Below, one piece after another: positions 160 to 7,325 of a stretch of DNA of 58,557 nt. Source of the DNA: Bdellovibrionia bacterium (lineage in GTDB: Bacteria > Bdellovibrionota > Bdellovibrionia > Bdellovibrionales > UBA1609); contig JAUILT010000004.1 in the NCBI GenBank assembly GCA_030432925.1, positions 1-58,557 of the forward strand. The letters are read 5' to 3'. Both the position numbers and the translations under genes were made by a program. Under the pieces are notes generated by a model. That model searched no databases and was not told the DNA's origin. It saw only the letters and a program-made list of their open reading frames with translations. The first letter of the stretch is position 1, and the number at the start of each line of letters is the position of its first letter.

Positions 160-693
160 ATGCTGTTTTTTTTGAAGACAATTTTGTTTCTGACTGCGAT
201 TTTCACCTGTTTTCAGCCACAAGTTCTGGCTCAGTCAGGTACATCCGAAGCAGACCCTACAGGCCAGAATGTTCTTTGGGAGTGGGGAGTTCATGGTGGT
301 AACCTGCTCCCCAACCAAATTCCAGGATTGACCGAAATCACGGGGCTTGGTGGAGTGCGAGGAGGTTACCGAATCGCCCCTTCCGGCTTTTTAGAATCTG
401 GAATTGCCACGGGGAGTGGGTATGGGGCAACTTGGACCAACGCGCATATTGCGGCTCGTATGGAAATTCCAGTAGAAACACTTGTTGGTCATGTCTTTGC
501 TGGACTGGATACTATTTACTATCAGGGAGCCGGTCGCTCCAAAAAACTTTTTGGTGGTGGACATGTTGGCGGTGGTATTCAGGCTCAGTTAGGAGGGTCG
601 GTTTGGTTTCGCTCCAATATGAAGTTCACTGTTAACCCAGGAACGTCCATGTACATTGATTTTGGAATCATGTTTCGTATTCCTGGGTCATAA
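160..693 (+). CDS. Hypothetical secreted, Gly-rich beta-strand protein
   Basis: I do not recognise this gene. About 177 residues: an N-terminal signal peptide with a hydrophobic core at residues ~4-22 and a likely cleavage after Val-Leu-Ala, then a Gly/aromatic-rich body with alternating hydrophobic residues, as in a small outer-membrane barrel or periplasmic beta protein. It ends with Phe-Gly-Ile-Met-Phe-Arg-Ile-Pro-Gly-Ser. GTG at 157 and ATG at 160 are adjacent in-frame starts; neither has a clear Shine-Dalgarno site. A TATAAT box at 146-151 lies so close that the mRNA might be almost leaderless. Its 3' end overlaps the convergent nadB gene by 6 bp. Confidence 0.6.
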   Translation: MLFFLKTILFLTAIFTCFQPQVLAQSGTSEADPTGQNVLWEWGVHGGNLLPNQIPGLTEITGLGGVRGGYRIAPSGFLESGIATGSGYGATWTNAHIAARMEIPVETLVGHVFAGLDTIYYQGAGRSKKLFGGGHVGGGIQAQLGGSVWFRSNMKFTVNPGTSMYIDFGIMFRIPGS

Positions 694-2253
694 AATAGTG
701 TCTTTTTTCCACTCTTGTCGTGTTTCCGGATAATCTAAATTAAAGTGAATACCTCGGGACTCTTTGCGCCTGAGAGCACAGCGAACTGTTAGTTCGGCGA
801 CAAGTGCAATATTTCTCAGTTCCTCAATATCTGAGTGAGGGGGGAGTTGAGAGTAGTAATCATGAATCTCTTGGTTGATCAGTTGTAACCGATGCAAAGC
901 TCGTTGCAGTCTACGGTTGGAGCGAACAATGCCCACGTAGTTCCACATTAATCTTCGGATTTCTTCCCACATGTGATGAATAACAACCATTTCATCATCA
1001 TTTTTTAATAATTTTTTTGATGTCGTAAAAATGGGCTTCATGAGTGAAACAGTTTTTACTGGATCTTGCGATATAATTTTTGCACAATGGTGAGCTGTCA
1101 CCATGCACTCCAGCAGAGAGTTGGATGCTAGTCGATTAGCTCCATGCAAGCCCGTACATGCTGATTCTCCCAAGCAGTACAGATTTTTTATATTTGTTCT
1201 GCCCGAAATATCGGTAAGTACTCCACCACACAGATAGTGAGCAGCAGGCACAACAGGCATTGGGGTTTTGCTGATATCAAGACCTAGGCCTTGGCAGCGA
1301 GAAAAAATTTGTGGAAATCGTTTTTGCAAAAAATCACGGTTATGGTGGGTCATGTCCAGGCGGACATAATCATCTCCAGATCTTTTCAACTCACTATCGA
1401 TAGCTCGGGCAACAATGTCTCTGGGAGCAAGGCTGTCAGTGAACTCTTCTCCATGGCCGTTGATAAGGCGTCCTCCCTCTCCACGCAAGGCTTCTGAAAT
1501 AAGAAAGTTTCTGGAGGTGGGGTTAAAAAGGCAGGTGGGATGAAATTGCATGAACTCAAGGTTGGCCACGCGGGCTCCGGCTCTGTAAGCCATAGCGATT
1601 CCATCTCCTGTGGCTCCTTCCCAGTTGGAGGTGTAAAGATAGGATTTGCCTGCACCTCCTGTGGCTAAAACAGTGTGCTCTGCCAGCAAAGGTTTTATAG
1701 TACCCGTCTGTTTGTTCAGAATGTGAACACCAATACAAGGGGTGTCTTCCTCTTGTTGAGGAGCAAGGTCACTCATTAAAATTAAATCGGTAGCAAAAAG
1801 GTTTTCTTGAAGATCAATATTTTTGTGATCTATGGCTTTTTGCAGTAGGTGTCTATGAATGGACTGTCCTGTGTGGTCAGATATATGCAGAATTCTTCGT
1901 TCCGAATGTCCGCCCTCTCTACCCAGGGAAAACTCTTCACTGGAATCGGAGCGATCAAACTCAACACCCCAATTTGCCAAGTCGCGAATTCTCTCAGGAG
2001 CCTCCTCTGTGATTTGTTGAACAACATCCGGTTGGCAGAGCCCTGCTCCAGCCCTCAGTGTGTCTTCAAAGTGTTTTTGAGGAGAGTCTCCTTTGTTGAT
2101 AGCGGCTGCAATTCCTCCTTGAGCCATGGACGTGTTGGTCTGATTCAGAGATACTTTGGAGATAAGAGTGACTTTGCGGTGAGAAGCGAGCTTGAGTGCA
2201 AAAACCAGCCCGGCCAAGCCTGAACCGACAACAATCACGTCTTGATTTTGCAT
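688..2253 (-). CDS. nadB: L-aspartate oxidase NadB
   Basis: FAD-dependent oxidation of L-aspartate to iminoaspartate, the first step of de novo NAD synthesis; cytosolic. The 521-residue length fits the family. An N-terminal Rossmann FAD motif (VVGSGLAGL, residues ~7-15) is followed by the NadB/SdhA-type segment SMAQGGIAAA near 42-51, the substrate-site segment GREGGHSERRI near 111-121, and the C-terminal succinate-dehydrogenase-flavoprotein helical domain. The start is preceded on the minus strand by a GGGAGG-like ribosome site. No nadA or nadC lies next to it. It is divergent from the signalling pair that starts at 2410 and converges on the small secreted-protein gene, overlapping it by 6 bp without a visible terminator. 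Confidence 0.95.
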   Translation of the reverse strand: MQNQDVIVVGSGLAGLVFALKLASHRKVTLISKVSLNQTNTSMAQGGIAAAINKGDSPQKHFEDTLRAGAGLCQPDVVQQITEEAPERIRDLANWGVEFDRSDSSEEFSLGREGGHSERRILHISDHTGQSIHRHLLQKAIDHKNIDLQENLFATDLILMSDLAPQQEEDTPCIGVHILNKQTGTIKPLLAEHTVLATGGAGKSYLYTSNWEGATGDGIAMAYRAGARVANLEFMQFHPTCLFNPTSRNFLISEALRGEGGRLINGHGEEFTDSLAPRDIVARAIDSELKRSGDDYVRLDMTHHNRDFLQKRFPQIFSRCQGLGLDISKTPMPVVPAAHYLCGGVLTDISGRTNIKNLYCLGESACTGLHGANRLASNSLLECMVTAHHCAKIISQDPVKTVSLMKPIFTTSKKLLKNDDEMVVIHHMWEEIRRLMWNYVGIVRSNRRLQRALHRLQLINQEIHDYYSQLPPHSDIEELRNIALVAELTVRCALRRKESRGIHFNLDYPETRQEWKKDTIL

Positions 2254-2409: not shown

Positions 2410-4641
2410 ATGTCATGGAAGGTGAAGACAATGCGTGTAAAATTAGCCATGGCTATTGGTCTGGGAATTTTAGCTCTGACCTTCATGACGGCCATTAAAA
2501 TCACCTCATTGGGGAGCGAGGAGCGGTCCCGCTTTCTTCGTGGCAGCGTTCAGAGTGAGGTGGGGCTTGCTAAGACAAATGCCAGTCTCTTGTCAAAAAA
2601 TTATGCTGAGCTTTTAACTCAGGCGACCTCTGTTGAGGAGTCTATTCGTAGGGAAAGCTCTCCCGGAGTGGTCAATTCTATTTTTATTAAAGGCCCTTTT
2701 TTGACAGTGGCTCTTTTGGAGCCTGCGGATATTTCTGGTTGGAATTTAAGATGGATAAAAAATAAGACAGATCAAGAGGGGGCCTGGACGCAGTCCAATG
2801 GTCAACAAGTGGCTCAAGATTTACCGTTGGCCGCAGTGAGTGACGAAAATATAATCTGGCATAGACATTTATCAAAGACTGGACATGCACTTTACACATT
2901 AATGATTCGAGTGAGGGTGCCCAACCCTGAAACTGGAAAAATGGTCAATATGGTAGCCCTTGGAACTTTGAATAATCAGGCCTTTTCAACAGTTGTGGAG
3001 AGTTTTAAGTCCACCACTAGAGAAGTTATGGTTCTTGATGATAAGGGATATGCTTTGGCTTACACAAGCCAACAGTATGTAGGGGCTCCCATGAACACTC
3101 ACCCCATGGTGGAAACTCTTTTGAATGAGAGAAAAGTCATTGATATCGGAAGCTATCAAGATAGAGGTGGAGCAGATATAGTTGGCGCCTATGAGCGTCT
3201 TGACGAGAGCAACCTTTATGTTGCTGTGGCTCAGAAACTGGGGAGCTATCCGAGTTTATTTTCAGCTCAACTTGTGAGCCTTATCGGATTGGCAGTGGCA
3301 TCATTTTTGATTGCTATTTCTTTTGGTTTTTTGTTGGTTCGCCCTACAATAGCTGCTTATGAATATCTCCAGGACCTTGCCATTGCATTGGGGCAGGGGC
3401 TGCCGGTGAGGCAGCCAGCTTATTTTGCCGACATGCCCCCGGTATTGATTCAATCCATTCAAAAACTTCAGGCAGATCCCCCTCCTGTGCACCCTTCAAC
3501 TGAAGCCTCTGGGGATACGTTATCCACGCGGCCGTCTGTAGCGCAGGAAGTGAGCGAAGAGGAAAAGGTAAAGATCTATAAGGAGGTAGCTTCTGGTTTG
3601 GCCATGGCGTTGAAAGAGCCAGTGAATGTTATACTTGGGCAATCACAGCTAGCACGAGCAAAGTTGGAGGACCAGGGTATTACAGACCACTATACTGCTA
3701 TCGAACGTGAGGCTCGAAGAGTACGTTCTACAGTAGAAAACCTCATGAAAGTTTCAGGAGCAGAGTCTCTTCAACTGCAACGGGAGGATTTGCATGAAAT
3801 TGTTCTTTCTGCCCTTAAAGAGGTACGACCAGAGTTGGAAGCATTTGGAGTGCAGGTTCGAAAGGATTTACGTCCTGCGAGTCCAATCAAAGTAGACGCA
3901 AATCGTCTGAGAACGGCTATTACAGAAATTTTGAAAAATGCAGTGGAGGCTATGCAAGATGTTGCAGATAAGGAGCTTTTTCTACTTATTAAAGATGAGG
4001 GAAAATATTTGACCTTGACTATTCAGGATACAGGTGGAGGAATTTCTGAGCAGGGGCTCTCCCGAGTCTTCACACCTTTTTATAGCACTAAATCGGAAAT
4101 GCAACATAAAGGCTTGGGACTTTCTGTAGCCAAAGGAATTGTAGAGTCTTGTTTAGGAAAATTAAGAGTGGACTCTACGGGGCCGCAAGGAACTCGCGTT
4201 ATTATGGAGTTTCCCTTACTTCAGGCAGCTAGTGATAAGTCAGAAGAATCTCCAGCAGTGAACACTCCAGTTGAAGAGGGAGTTCAACCTTTAGTGGCAA
4301 AAATGCCTAGTCTTGAAGACAAGTTGCCTGAAATTGATCAGGTAGACCTTGCCGGAGTTCGGCCATTGACTGGGTCTGATGCAGATAACCTACCTTCACC
4401 ACCTTCTGATGAGGAGGAGGCAGAGCTGCATCAAATCCGTATGCAAGATGCTACGACAGATATTCGAGATCTATCGAGTATGGAAGAAGAGCTTGATGAT
4501 GAGTCACAAATAGCGATTCTTGAAGAATCTGTCGCAGGTAGTGACTTGGACCTGATCAGTGGTGACGATGATTCCAACGACAATGATGAGCCCGGATTCA
4601 CTGTGACCATTCGCAAACCAAAAGTGGGAAGCGGTGAATGA
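2410..4641 (+). CDS. Histidine-kinase-like sensor without the phospho-acceptor His (pseudo-kinase)
   Basis: A 743-residue membrane protein. TM1 is at ~11-30, an extracytoplasmic Cache-like sensor region at ~35-280, TM2 at ~287-311, then a linker, a dimerisation-helix region at ~385-450, a GHKL ATPase domain at ~455-602 and an acidic tail of ~140 residues. The ATPase boxes look intact: N box with Asn510, G1 Asp540-Thr-Gly-Gly-Gly, F box Phe555-Thr-Pro-Phe, G2 Gly-Leu-Gly at 568-570. The H-box helix reads GLAMALKEPVNVILG where the family has G-x-A-H-E-x-x-x-P-L; the His and Glu are Met399 and Ala400 (codons 3604-3609). So it cannot autophosphorylate in the usual way and may be a nucleotide-dependent scaffold (inference). 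ATG at 2431 has a better ribosome site (GGAAGGTG) and is an alternative start. The stop overlaps the next gene as ATGA. Confidence 0.85.
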   Translation: MSWKVKTMRVKLAMAIGLGILALTFMTAIKITSLGSEERSRFLRGSVQSEVGLAKTNASLLSKNYAELLTQATSVEESIRRESSPGVVNSIFIKGPFLTVALLEPADISGWNLRWIKNKTDQEGAWTQSNGQQVAQDLPLAAVSDENIIWHRHLSKTGHALYTLMIRVRVPNPETGKMVNMVALGTLNNQAFSTVVESFKSTTREVMVLDDKGYALAYTSQQYVGAPMNTHPMVETLLNERKVIDIGSYQDRGGADIVGAYERLDESNLYVAVAQKLGSYPSLFSAQLVSLIGLAVASFLIAISFGFLLVRPTIAAYEYLQDLAIALGQGLPVRQPAYFADMPPVLIQSIQKLQADPPPVHPSTEASGDTLSTRPSVAQEVSEEEKVKIYKEVASGLAMALKEPVNVILGQSQLARAKLEDQGITDHYTAIEREARRVRSTVENLMKVSGAESLQLQREDLHEIVLSALKEVRPELEAFGVQVRKDLRPASPIKVDANRLRTAITEILKNAVEAMQDVADKELFLLIKDEGKYLTLTIQDTGGGISEQGLSRVFTPFYSTKSEMQHKGLGLSVAKGIVESCLGKLRVDSTGPQGTRVIMEFPLLQAASDKSEESPAVNTPVEEGVQPLVAKMPSLEDKLPEIDQVDLAGVRPLTGSDADNLPSPPSDEEEAELHQIRMQDATTDIRDLSSMEEELDDESQIAILEESVAGSDLDLISGDDDSNDNDEPGFTVTIRKPKVGSGE

Positions 4642-6146
4642 ATATTCAAAAGTACCGGTCCTCTTTTACCTGTCACATTATTACTGACAAGGGCACTGGT
4701 GAAGGGCTTGCTCGAGGAGTGGCTCAGGCAGGCTATCGGACAGCGGTATTTGAAGATTTTACGATATTTCTTCAAGGGGCAAGACAAGACCCTCCCCACT
4801 TTGTGCTACTGATGAGAGAGGGCTTTGAGTCTGAAGTTGTTAAATCAGAGCTTTTGAAAATTCACCAGTTGCTGCCAGAATCTGAGGTCATTTTACTGGT
4901 AAATCATGAGCAGCTCTCTCTGGCCTGGGAGCAAGTAGGACGCAGCGTATTTGCAATGACTTCATTTCCACTGAACCATCCACTTCAAGTGATTAAAGAG
5001 TTAGATCACGCGGCTCAAAATACTTTTTTTAAATACCAAAATGAACAACTACACGAAGCGCTTAAAGAGGTTCATGCGAGTTCAAGAGATGTGCAAAGGC
5101 CTGCCCCTGAGGTTGAAGTCTCCGACCCTTTCTTCAGTTATGCAGATTATCAACGGTCTTTATTTCAACAATTGAGTCATGGCTCTAGCATTGAAATTTT
5201 CATGAAAGAGTTACATAGATTTTTTAAGTCACAGTCAGGAAAAGCCATTTACTTTAAGTATATTGGTGCTAGAAAAACTATTATTCATCAGTTTTCTGCA
5301 GGGTTGGAGAGAGATGATATTGCGGACTTGGGAATTAATTTTTCAAAAGTTGATTCTGCTTTTAGAAAGTCTCACATCAAGCGAGTAGAAACGCATCCCG
5401 CCTTTCAAGAGATGTTAAAAAATGTTTTTAACGTGGACCGCTTTCATGCCCTTAAGCTTGAGGTGTTAGGGGAGGTTTTTGGAGTCCTCATTTTATGGGA
5501 TATACAGGCGGACTCAGAAGATTTTTCTTATGTGGAAAATAGTTTTTTTCTGCTCAACAGAAATTGTCTGGCTGTGGAGTTAGAAAAACGTTTACATACA
5601 AATCAGATTTATGATCTAGCTTCCCAAGCTTATAACAAACATCATTTTTTACAGCGAATGACCGAGGAAATTGCGAGGGCTCGTCGTACATCTCTTCCCG
5701 TCAGTTTTATCTTACTGAGTATCGATAGAATGGAAGAAGTTACTCAAGGATGTGACAGAGAAGATCTTTCGTTGTTTTTGAAGTCTTTGGTAAGAATTAT
5801 CCAAAAGCACTCTCGGATTAACGACGTCATTGGTCGATTAGGGCAGGATGAGTTTGGACTTTTACTTCCACACACAGCATCCAAAGGTGGTGCTATTAAG
5901 GCCGAGAGGATTCGTAGAATGATTGAGTCTGCTGATTTTTCGCAGGTGCTTCCTGGTTACTCGCAAATGACTCTGAGTTTGAGTGTTAGTGAGTACCCGG
6001 GAGTTTGCAAAGATGCAGATGAACTTTTTCAGTCTGCAGACAGAGCACTTTATGATTTGAAAAAAAATGAGTTAAACAAAGTTGTTATGGTCAAAGCCCC
6101 TGAGGGGTTTATTGCTGACTTTGTAACTCCTAAACCGAACTATTAG
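4638..6146 (+). CDS. Degenerate GGDEF-domain protein with intact RxxD I-site (probable c-di-GMP receptor)
   Basis: 502 residues and soluble. Residues ~10-125 look like a response-regulator-like fold without a clear phospho-acceptor; ~165-320 is GAF-like; ~335-490 is a GGDEF domain. It aligns without gaps to the PleD-type core from the metal Asp to the signature. The metal-ligand Asp is Ser361, the substrate Asn and Asp are Thr369 and Ser378, and the signature is GQDEF (402-406). The inhibitory RxxD site is kept (Arg393, Asp396), spaced normally before the signature. Inactive GGDEF domains with an intact I-site are known to act as c-di-GMP receptors, so that is the favoured role (inference). 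The start overlaps the stop of the pseudo-kinase gene (ATGA), implying translational coupling and probably a shared pathway. Confidence 0.85.
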   Translation: MNIQKYRSSFTCHIITDKGTGEGLARGVAQAGYRTAVFEDFTIFLQGARQDPPHFVLLMREGFESEVVKSELLKIHQLLPESEVILLVNHEQLSLAWEQVGRSVFAMTSFPLNHPLQVIKELDHAAQNTFFKYQNEQLHEALKEVHASSRDVQRPAPEVEVSDPFFSYADYQRSLFQQLSHGSSIEIFMKELHRFFKSQSGKAIYFKYIGARKTIIHQFSAGLERDDIADLGINFSKVDSAFRKSHIKRVETHPAFQEMLKNVFNVDRFHALKLEVLGEVFGVLILWDIQADSEDFSYVENSFFLLNRNCLAVELEKRLHTNQIYDLASQAYNKHHFLQRMTEEIARARRTSLPVSFILLSIDRMEEVTQGCDREDLSLFLKSLVRIIQKHSRINDVIGRLGQDEFGLLLPHTASKGGAIKAERIRRMIESADFSQVLPGYSQMTLSLSVSEYPGVCKDADELFQSADRALYDLKKNELNKVVMVKAPEGFIADFVTPKPNY

Positions 6147-6155
6147 GTACCCCCA

Positions 6156-7325
6156 TTGATTACAGAGATATCGACCTCTAATTTTAGAAAAACACGTGCA
6201 TTGATTGATTTGAATGCTATTAAAAGCAACCTCCTGTTTTTGAAAAGCCAGCTTCAATCTAAAGATCAGTTTTTTTGTCCCATGGTTAAATCCAATGGCT
6301 ACGGTCATGGAGATATTGAAGTGGCTCGTATTTGTGAGCAAGTGGGTGTAAGTGGTGTGGGAGTTGCTCTCTTGGAAGAGGGCATACGTCTGCGAAAGTC
6401 TGGTATTAGTTGTGATATTTTTGTATTTGGCCCCATTCTTGATGAGGCCGTGGGAGAGTTGGTCACACATAGGCTGGTTCCTGTTATAGGCCAGTGGCCA
6501 GAGCTACGTGCTTTGAAAAAGGTGATTGGTGACTCTGGTTCAGTGGATGTGCATATCAAGTTTAATACGGGTATGAACCGACTGGGCTTTCCAATTCAAG
6601 AATCTGATAGATTAGTGAATTTTTTTGAATCAGAAAAAAATATTAATCTTGCAGGCATATGTTCACACCTGTCTGATGGTGATGACGTGGGAGTTGTAGG
6701 AGGGGTTTCAGAAAGGCAGATTGAGGCGCTTGTAGACCTTGAGAAAAAATTTTTAAAATTTTCGCCAATTGTTCATTTATGGAACTCTTCTGGCTGGTTT
6801 TCAATGTTGAAGCACAAGTCCGAATTAGAAGCTGTATCTCAGTGGGGAGTTCGACCAGGCATTGCTATTTACGGTGTTCAGCCTCTTGAAACAGAAATAT
6901 TTACGGAGCTGAAGCCAGCGATGATTCTTGAATCAGAAATTGTGACTATACAGAAGGTGTTGAAGGGGCAAAGTGTATCTTATGGATCTACATGGACAGC
7001 TGATAAAGATACTCTCGTTGGGGTTATTCCCATTGGTTATGCTGATGGCTACTCCCGTGCATTTTCCAGAAAGGGCCAGATGATTGTCGGTGGGCAAAAA
7101 GTGCCGGTGCTGGGAGTTATTTGTATGGACTATACCATGGTAAACCTTACCGACTTAAATATTGATCCTAAACAGGATTTAGGTAAGGAAGTCATCCTTT
7201 TAGGTCGTCAAGGTGACCAGAAAATCACTGCAGAAGAACTTGCAGAGGTGATTGATACAATTCCTTATGAGATAATCACGTGCATAGGGAGAAGAGTTCC
7301 CAGAGAGTTTAAGGGTCACCTATAA
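6156..7325 (+). CDS. alr: Alanine racemase
   Basis: PLP-dependent interconversion of L- and D-alanine, supplying D-Ala for peptidoglycan. The 389-residue length is normal. The PLP lysine is Lys45 in MVKSNGYGHG, a Ser/Gly variant of the usual KANAYGHG. The C-terminal domain carries GYADGYSR with the catalytic Tyr, and CMDY near the substrate site. The start is TTG, nine bases after the stop of the GGDEF-like gene, with a weak AGG upstream. The TAATG overlap with mlaE at 7323-7327 suggests one transcript running into the lipid-transport genes. Confidence 0.95.
   Translation: MITEISTSNFRKTRALIDLNAIKSNLLFLKSQLQSKDQFFCPMVKSNGYGHGDIEVARICEQVGVSGVGVALLEEGIRLRKSGISCDIFVFGPILDEAVGELVTHRLVPVIGQWPELRALKKVIGDSGSVDVHIKFNTGMNRLGFPIQESDRLVNFFESEKNINLAGICSHLSDGDDVGVVGGVSERQIEALVDLEKKFLKFSPIVHLWNSSGWFSMLKHKSELEAVSQWGVRPGIAIYGVQPLETEIFTELKPAMILESEIVTIQKVLKGQSVSYGSTWTADKDTLVGVIPIGYADGYSRAFSRKGQMIVGGQKVPVLGVICMDYTMVNLTDLNIDPKQDLGKEVILLGRQGDQKITAEELAEVIDTIPYEIITCIGRRVPREFKGHL

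Follow-up and report, generated by a model that had tools for sequence, protein, structure and literature searches.

The window, by which I mean the whole 58,557-nucleotide stretch of DNA analysed here, belongs to a group of predatory-type bacteria related to Bdellovibrio and carries a pair of overlapping genes, one for a dead kinase and one for a dead cyclase. The best explanation of the pair, and a probable one, is that both have been kept as a membrane-tethered receptor for c-di-GMP, a peptide at the end of the kinase docking the cyclase-like protein CdgA. The kinase is likely to be the missing partner of CdgA, a c-di-GMP receptor that Bdellovibrio requires to invade its prey quickly, and the proposed contact is pinpointed to a peptide of nine residues. 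Relatives of the pair furthermore form an ordered series, from intact to dead, of a phosphorelay-cyclase pathway turning into a receptor.

The window, contig 96 of a 3.04-Mb genome, carries on its plus strand, in this order, the kinase-like gene, cdgA, alr, mlaE, mlaF, mlaD and purH. The locus comprises:

688..2253, minus strand: nadB, conserved upstream neighbour on the opposite strand (gene-neighbourhood comparison)
2410..4641, plus strand: kinase-like gene, 743 aa, with a degenerate DHp, an intact ATP-binding domain and a long acidic C-terminal extension
4638..4641, plus strand: ATGA overlap of the kinase stop and the cdgA start (read from the sequence)
4638..6146, plus strand: CdgA ortholog, 502 aa, pseudo-receiver - GAF-like - degenerate GGDEF
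6156..7325, plus strand: alr, conserved downstream neighbour, followed by mlaE, mlaF and mlaD (gene-neighbourhood comparison)

The first-pass annotation of this DNA had reported the ATGA overlap with a pseudo-kinase gene, which is confirmed at 4638-4641, and had proposed conservation of gene order in related genomes as a check. The order nadB'-kinase-cdgA-alr-mlaEFD is kept across the class, in nearly all loci compared, about 40 in number, as well as in the outgroup order, and the kinase and cdgA genes are adjacent throughout, mostly overlapping or abutting (ORF starts were assigned mechanically, and the loci are partly MAG fragments). Relatives of the window cdgA occur in 56 of 59 sampled genomes, and full-length ones in 106 of the 127 genomes of the order and also in a second order of the class; a search at E 1e-150 returned no relative of comparable strength elsewhere in the phylum. 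In B. bacteriovorus kdesi the same locus encodes the sole degenerate GGDEF among the four of that genome, with the motif GVNEL, and the locus of genome G062 encodes GVNEF, which is the motif published for CdgA (Bd3125). Because of the shared locus and of this GVNEF/GVNEL degenerate GGDEF in the Bdellovibrio counterpart, the 502-aa window protein is identified, by comparison of genomes, as an ortholog of Bdellovibrio CdgA (Bd3125). Identity between the two is only 27%; what they share is a conserved neighbourhood, full-length similarity and a degenerate GGDEF with RxxD. CdgA is cyclase-inactive and binds c-di-GMP (PMC3271064). Its Kd for c-di-GMP is about 2 uM and it makes no c-di-GMP in vitro; it is located at the invasive pole and contacts RomR, the TPR protein Bd2492 and Bd1971. 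I infer that the window protein behaves likewise. The receptor half of the pair, which had been put forward as part of an undescribed system, is hence none other than the known CdgA.

The kinase is composed as follows:

3604..3606, plus strand: codon of Met399, which replaces the phospho-acceptor His (alignment)
3895..4218, plus strand: HATPase_c domain, residues 496-603 (E=5.6e-20; N, D and G boxes kept)
4225..4638, plus strand: predicted disordered acidic extension, residues 606-743 (AF2 pLDDT below 50)
4597..4623, plus strand: C-terminal tail motif FTVTIRKPK, residues 730-738, the proposed CdgA tether (conservation)

With Met399 in its DHp, the window protein lacks the phospho-acceptor His of a sensor histidine kinase, while the N, G1 and G2 boxes of its ATP-binding domain are kept (Asn510, Asp540 and Gly568). 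Its N-terminal part consists of a periplasmic region flanked by two hydrophobic segments, as judged by eye; a dCache-like match of the sensor region is weak and found in relatives only, and the AF2 model of the window kinase is too poor (pLDDT 45) for a fold search. The three genomes of the window's genus carry Met (window), Gln (L031) and His (L032) in the His column, so the death of the kinase is recent and variable within this genus.

The tail motif, approximately x-V-x-I-R-[RK]-P-[KG], is C-terminal and follows a variable linker. A strict regular expression matches 65 of 79 kinases versus 24 of 871 other C-termini (2.8%), shuffled tails giving about 4. The window genome and G062 together hold 52 matches to the pattern, nearly all of which were checked, and none of these was the C-terminus of another plausible long protein; the G062 kinase has the motif. 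In Bdellovibrio HD100 the kinase upstream of cdgA ends in HVEIRRPGKRI. Since it is found both in the fully intact outgroup and in 15 of the 20 loci whose kinase core is degraded or absent, the tail outlives catalysis. One outgroup kinase (L165, f11) carries two copies, FKVNIRRPS and FRVKITRPK. A short conserved C-terminal peptide on a flexible linker, together with a co-conserved partner, is what characterizes a tethering peptide, and the combination of linker and conserved peptide in this kinase appears to be new.

The partner in question is CdgA. Of the 80 loci whose CdgA is full-length, 78 have the tail, as against 0 of the 13 that have a truncated CdgA or none (Fisher 4e-14; kinase L128 was left out of the scoring, its end being masked). 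In a tree of CdgA domains, no more than two contrasts between loss of the tail and loss of the receiver had support (p=0.5); more loci were then added, and a FastTree tree of five neighbour genes was used as the species tree. Phylogenetically independent contrasts between tail and CdgA amounted to 6/6 (sign test, p=0.031), or 7/7 (p=0.016) when two ambiguous loci are counted as reduced. The 17 further loci came from genomes missed by the first search and were added after the coupling idea had been noted; among those that could be scored, the tail is absent in 7/7 with reduced or missing CdgA and present in 4/5 with full CdgA. The kinase extension, with a median of 162 aa, shrinks to 16-40 aa in 9 of the 13 loci with reduced or absent CdgA, and the kinase gene itself persists where CdgA and tail are lost. 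Within a single genus, L044 has both CdgA and tail and L172 has neither. Six loci with a receiver-less CdgA are among those with the lowest tail scores, and their surroundings yielded no receiver-like remnant. Two loci, L062 and L176, have a full CdgA without a tail. The joint loss of tail and CdgA could in part stem from a general decay that affects the locus in reduced genomes. L168 has lost cdgA as well as the tail, yet its kinase retains a His in the DHp (DGISHSLQTP), which suggests a switch to another target.

These patterns bear on two alternatives. CdgA might be the receptor on its own, the kinase being an unconnected remnant whose tail binds some other protein that was lost alongside CdgA. 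The published partners of CdgA are RomR, SgmX and the phosphodiesterase Bd1971, and none of the papers found mentions the kinase beside cdgA; however, the adjacency of the two genes, mostly overlapping or abutting, is class-wide, and the tail is gone in every lineage that has lost or truncated CdgA even though the kinase gene stays, which makes this alternative unlikely. Much less likely still, the 3' end of the kinase gene could be a translation-initiation or coupling element for cdgA, with no protein motif at all: the motif sits approximately 20-70 nt from the cdgA start and vanishes along with cdgA. Yet third codon positions of the tail are nearly free (0.02-0.48 bits; Arg is written with six codons and Pro with four), so that selection acts on the peptide. 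The spacing from motif to C-terminus furthermore varies from 6 to 23 residues, and the REC-less loci encode a CdgA remnant yet have no motif. A peptide kept for its contact with CdgA remains the preferred reading.

The domains and active-site residues of the window CdgA are:

4638..5027, plus strand: pseudo-receiver domain, residues 1-130, with Met59 in the phospho-Asp column (AF2 fold)
5190..5585, plus strand: GAF-like region, approximately residues 185-316 (predicted fold, moderate confidence)
5610..6077, plus strand: GGDEF domain, residues 325-480 (Pfam GGDEF, E=1.2e-21)
5718..5771, plus strand: lost metal and substrate residues, Ser361 (5718-5720), Thr369 (5742-5744) and Ser378 (5769-5771) (alignment)
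5814..5825, plus strand: I-site RxxD, Arg393 (5814) to Asp396 (5823) (alignment)
5841..5855, plus strand: GQDEF replacing GGDEF, residues 402-406 (alignment)

In an alignment with PleD, WspR and 41 orthologs, the columns of PleD D327, N335 and D344 hold Ser361, Thr369 and Ser378 in the window and GGDEF has become GQDEF, while Arg393 and Asp396 of the I-site are retained, the RxxD standing five residues upstream of the degenerate motif. All these residues had been called correctly by the first-pass annotation, which overlooked the N-terminal pseudo-receiver and the C-terminal tail of the kinase. The window protein therefore lacks the metal Asp, the substrate Asn/Asp and the GG[DE]EF of an active diguanylate cyclase. 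Residues 1-130 adopt the alternating beta/alpha fold of a receiver in the AF2 model (mean pLDDT 70), but what makes a receiver phosphorylatable is missing: where basal orthologs read DDDTK, the window has T-MVF and no longer the acidic pair. The best Foldseek matches of the whole chain are to PleD in its c-di-GMP-bound form. Since Asp363, which comes second in the DxD pair, is retained, as is the Asp-Glu of GQDEF, one could imagine a weakly active cyclase under feedback from its I-site, in the manner of atypical motifs such as the AGDEF of VCA0965, an enzyme published as active (PMC3974145). This is hardly credible, since other residues stand in place of the metal Asp, the substrate Asn and Asp378, since these columns are free to vary in orthologs, and since the ortholog CdgA is inactive in vitro.

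How the pair came to be dead can be read from its relatives. An intact kinase His together with an intact receiver (DD/D/T/K) and cyclase (D-N-D-GGEEF) occurs only in families f2, f3, f4 and f7 and in the outgroup order f11; the outgroup protein matches Response_reg at 1.5e-29 and GGDEF at 2.8e-48 (Pfam). The ancestor of the locus, as reconstructed from these sequences, was a complete two-component diguanylate-cyclase pathway made of a membrane His kinase and a receiver-GAF-GGDEF regulator. The CdgA tree calls for two changes in the receiver Asp, two in cyclase integrity and seven in the kinase His, and all of its dead receivers fall in one 74-row branch (support 100). The receiver Asp was lost about once, and the kinase His later and repeatedly; the Bdellovibrio kinase retains the phospho-acceptor His. 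The I-site Arg and Asp are present in 85/85 orthologs, among which the metal Asp, substrate Asn and Asp378 columns vary freely. The I-site by itself was dropped as a mark of special function, given that it also occurs in 13 of the 15 intact GGDEF paralogs of the related genomes examined; what is meaningful is therefore how it contrasts with the decaying catalytic columns, and its retention in every ortholog despite that decay exceeds chance. The locus offers a series of losses in which the receiver goes first, the cyclase close to it, the kinase later and repeatedly, and the ligand site never. In two genera of family f10 (L120 and L121), D, N, D and GPDEF are kept beside an Asp-less receiver; this may be an intermediate, perhaps with a cyclase freed from phosphorylation control. 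That the window genes are simply a pseudogene pair decaying toward loss, as several reduced genomes in the family of the window, with cdgA truncated or lost, might hint, is most implausible, given that in the window each of the two reading frames runs uninterrupted for more than 500 codons, that orthologs of full length survive in different genera, and that I-site and tail are kept.

The same comparison qualifies the earlier picture of two coupled pseudo-enzymes. It holds for the window, where a non-catalytic receptor accompanies a His-less kinase, but is not uniform, as the Bdellovibrio kinase keeps its His. Coupling of a c-di-GMP receptor to the kinase is supported by the ortholog CdgA being inactive and binding c-di-GMP, and by the co-dependence of the two genes in genome comparison. 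Orthologs with intact active sites, which the first-pass annotation had set against its own proposal, do exist in the basal families, for both partners, but represent the ancestral state and leave the call for the window standing.

The tethered receptor favoured here would work as follows. In the window lineage, the kinase has lost its His (now Met399), the receiver its Asp (now Met59) and the cyclase its active site, and CdgA would act as a receptor binding c-di-GMP via its I-site. The kinase would be a membrane sensor with an ATP-binding domain and a flexible C-terminal extension ending in FTVTIRKPK, and this peptide would dock on CdgA, thereby holding the receptor at the membrane. CdgA would then relay c-di-GMP occupancy to its partners, which in Bdellovibrio are RomR and SgmX at the invasive pole. 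The role of the tether in the intact ancestor would have been phosphotransfer, and in the window it would serve recruitment or positioning only; ATP binding by the pseudokinase may contribute a conformational switch. I infer both the binding of the peptide to CdgA and the domain bound from sequence comparison. The most likely docking site is the (pseudo)receiver domain, because loss of the receiver alone coincides with loss of the tail in several lineages. Docking on the receiver specifically is weakened by L171 and L173 (genus f8g51), which keep a receiver-like part although neither the GGDEF domain nor the tail of the kinase is left. The broader reading, in which Bdellovibrio has the tether too and uses it to place CdgA at the pole that invades prey, has about even chances of being right. 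The window genome contains seven GGDEF genes, among them apparent counterparts of DgcA (receiver-GGDEF, L088), DgcB (FHA-GGDEF, L092) and DgcC (L084), and because of these counterparts c-di-GMP is probably made elsewhere in the cell.

Among known systems, CdgA (Bd3125) itself resembles the window protein in locus, domain order, degenerate GGDEF with intact I-site and Asp-less pseudo-receiver, and differs in having GVNEF rather than GQDEF and an upstream kinase with the phospho-acceptor His where the window has Met. PleD, the closest fold to the whole window chain, is by contrast an active, phosphorylated cyclase, and has two receivers. PopA of Caulobacter crescentus likewise joins a receiver to a GGDEF with a dead active site and an intact I-site and is a polar c-di-GMP receptor (as cited in PMC3509222). 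It belongs, however, to another lineage and has another domain layout. PopA has two receivers and no GAF, and I know of no tail-bearing partner kinase for it. In SgmT of Myxococcus xanthus a kinase is coupled to a degenerate GGDEF that binds c-di-GMP by its I-site and controls location (PMC3509222), but there both reside in one cytoplasmic polypeptide and the kinase is active. The chemoreceptor pentapeptide for CheB/CheR differs in its motif, NWETF, and in the proteins concerned, and its binding is demonstrated whereas that of the kinase tail is proposed; the design is nevertheless the same, a membrane sensor that recruits a response regulator by the short peptide at the tip of its flexible extension (PMC8609364).
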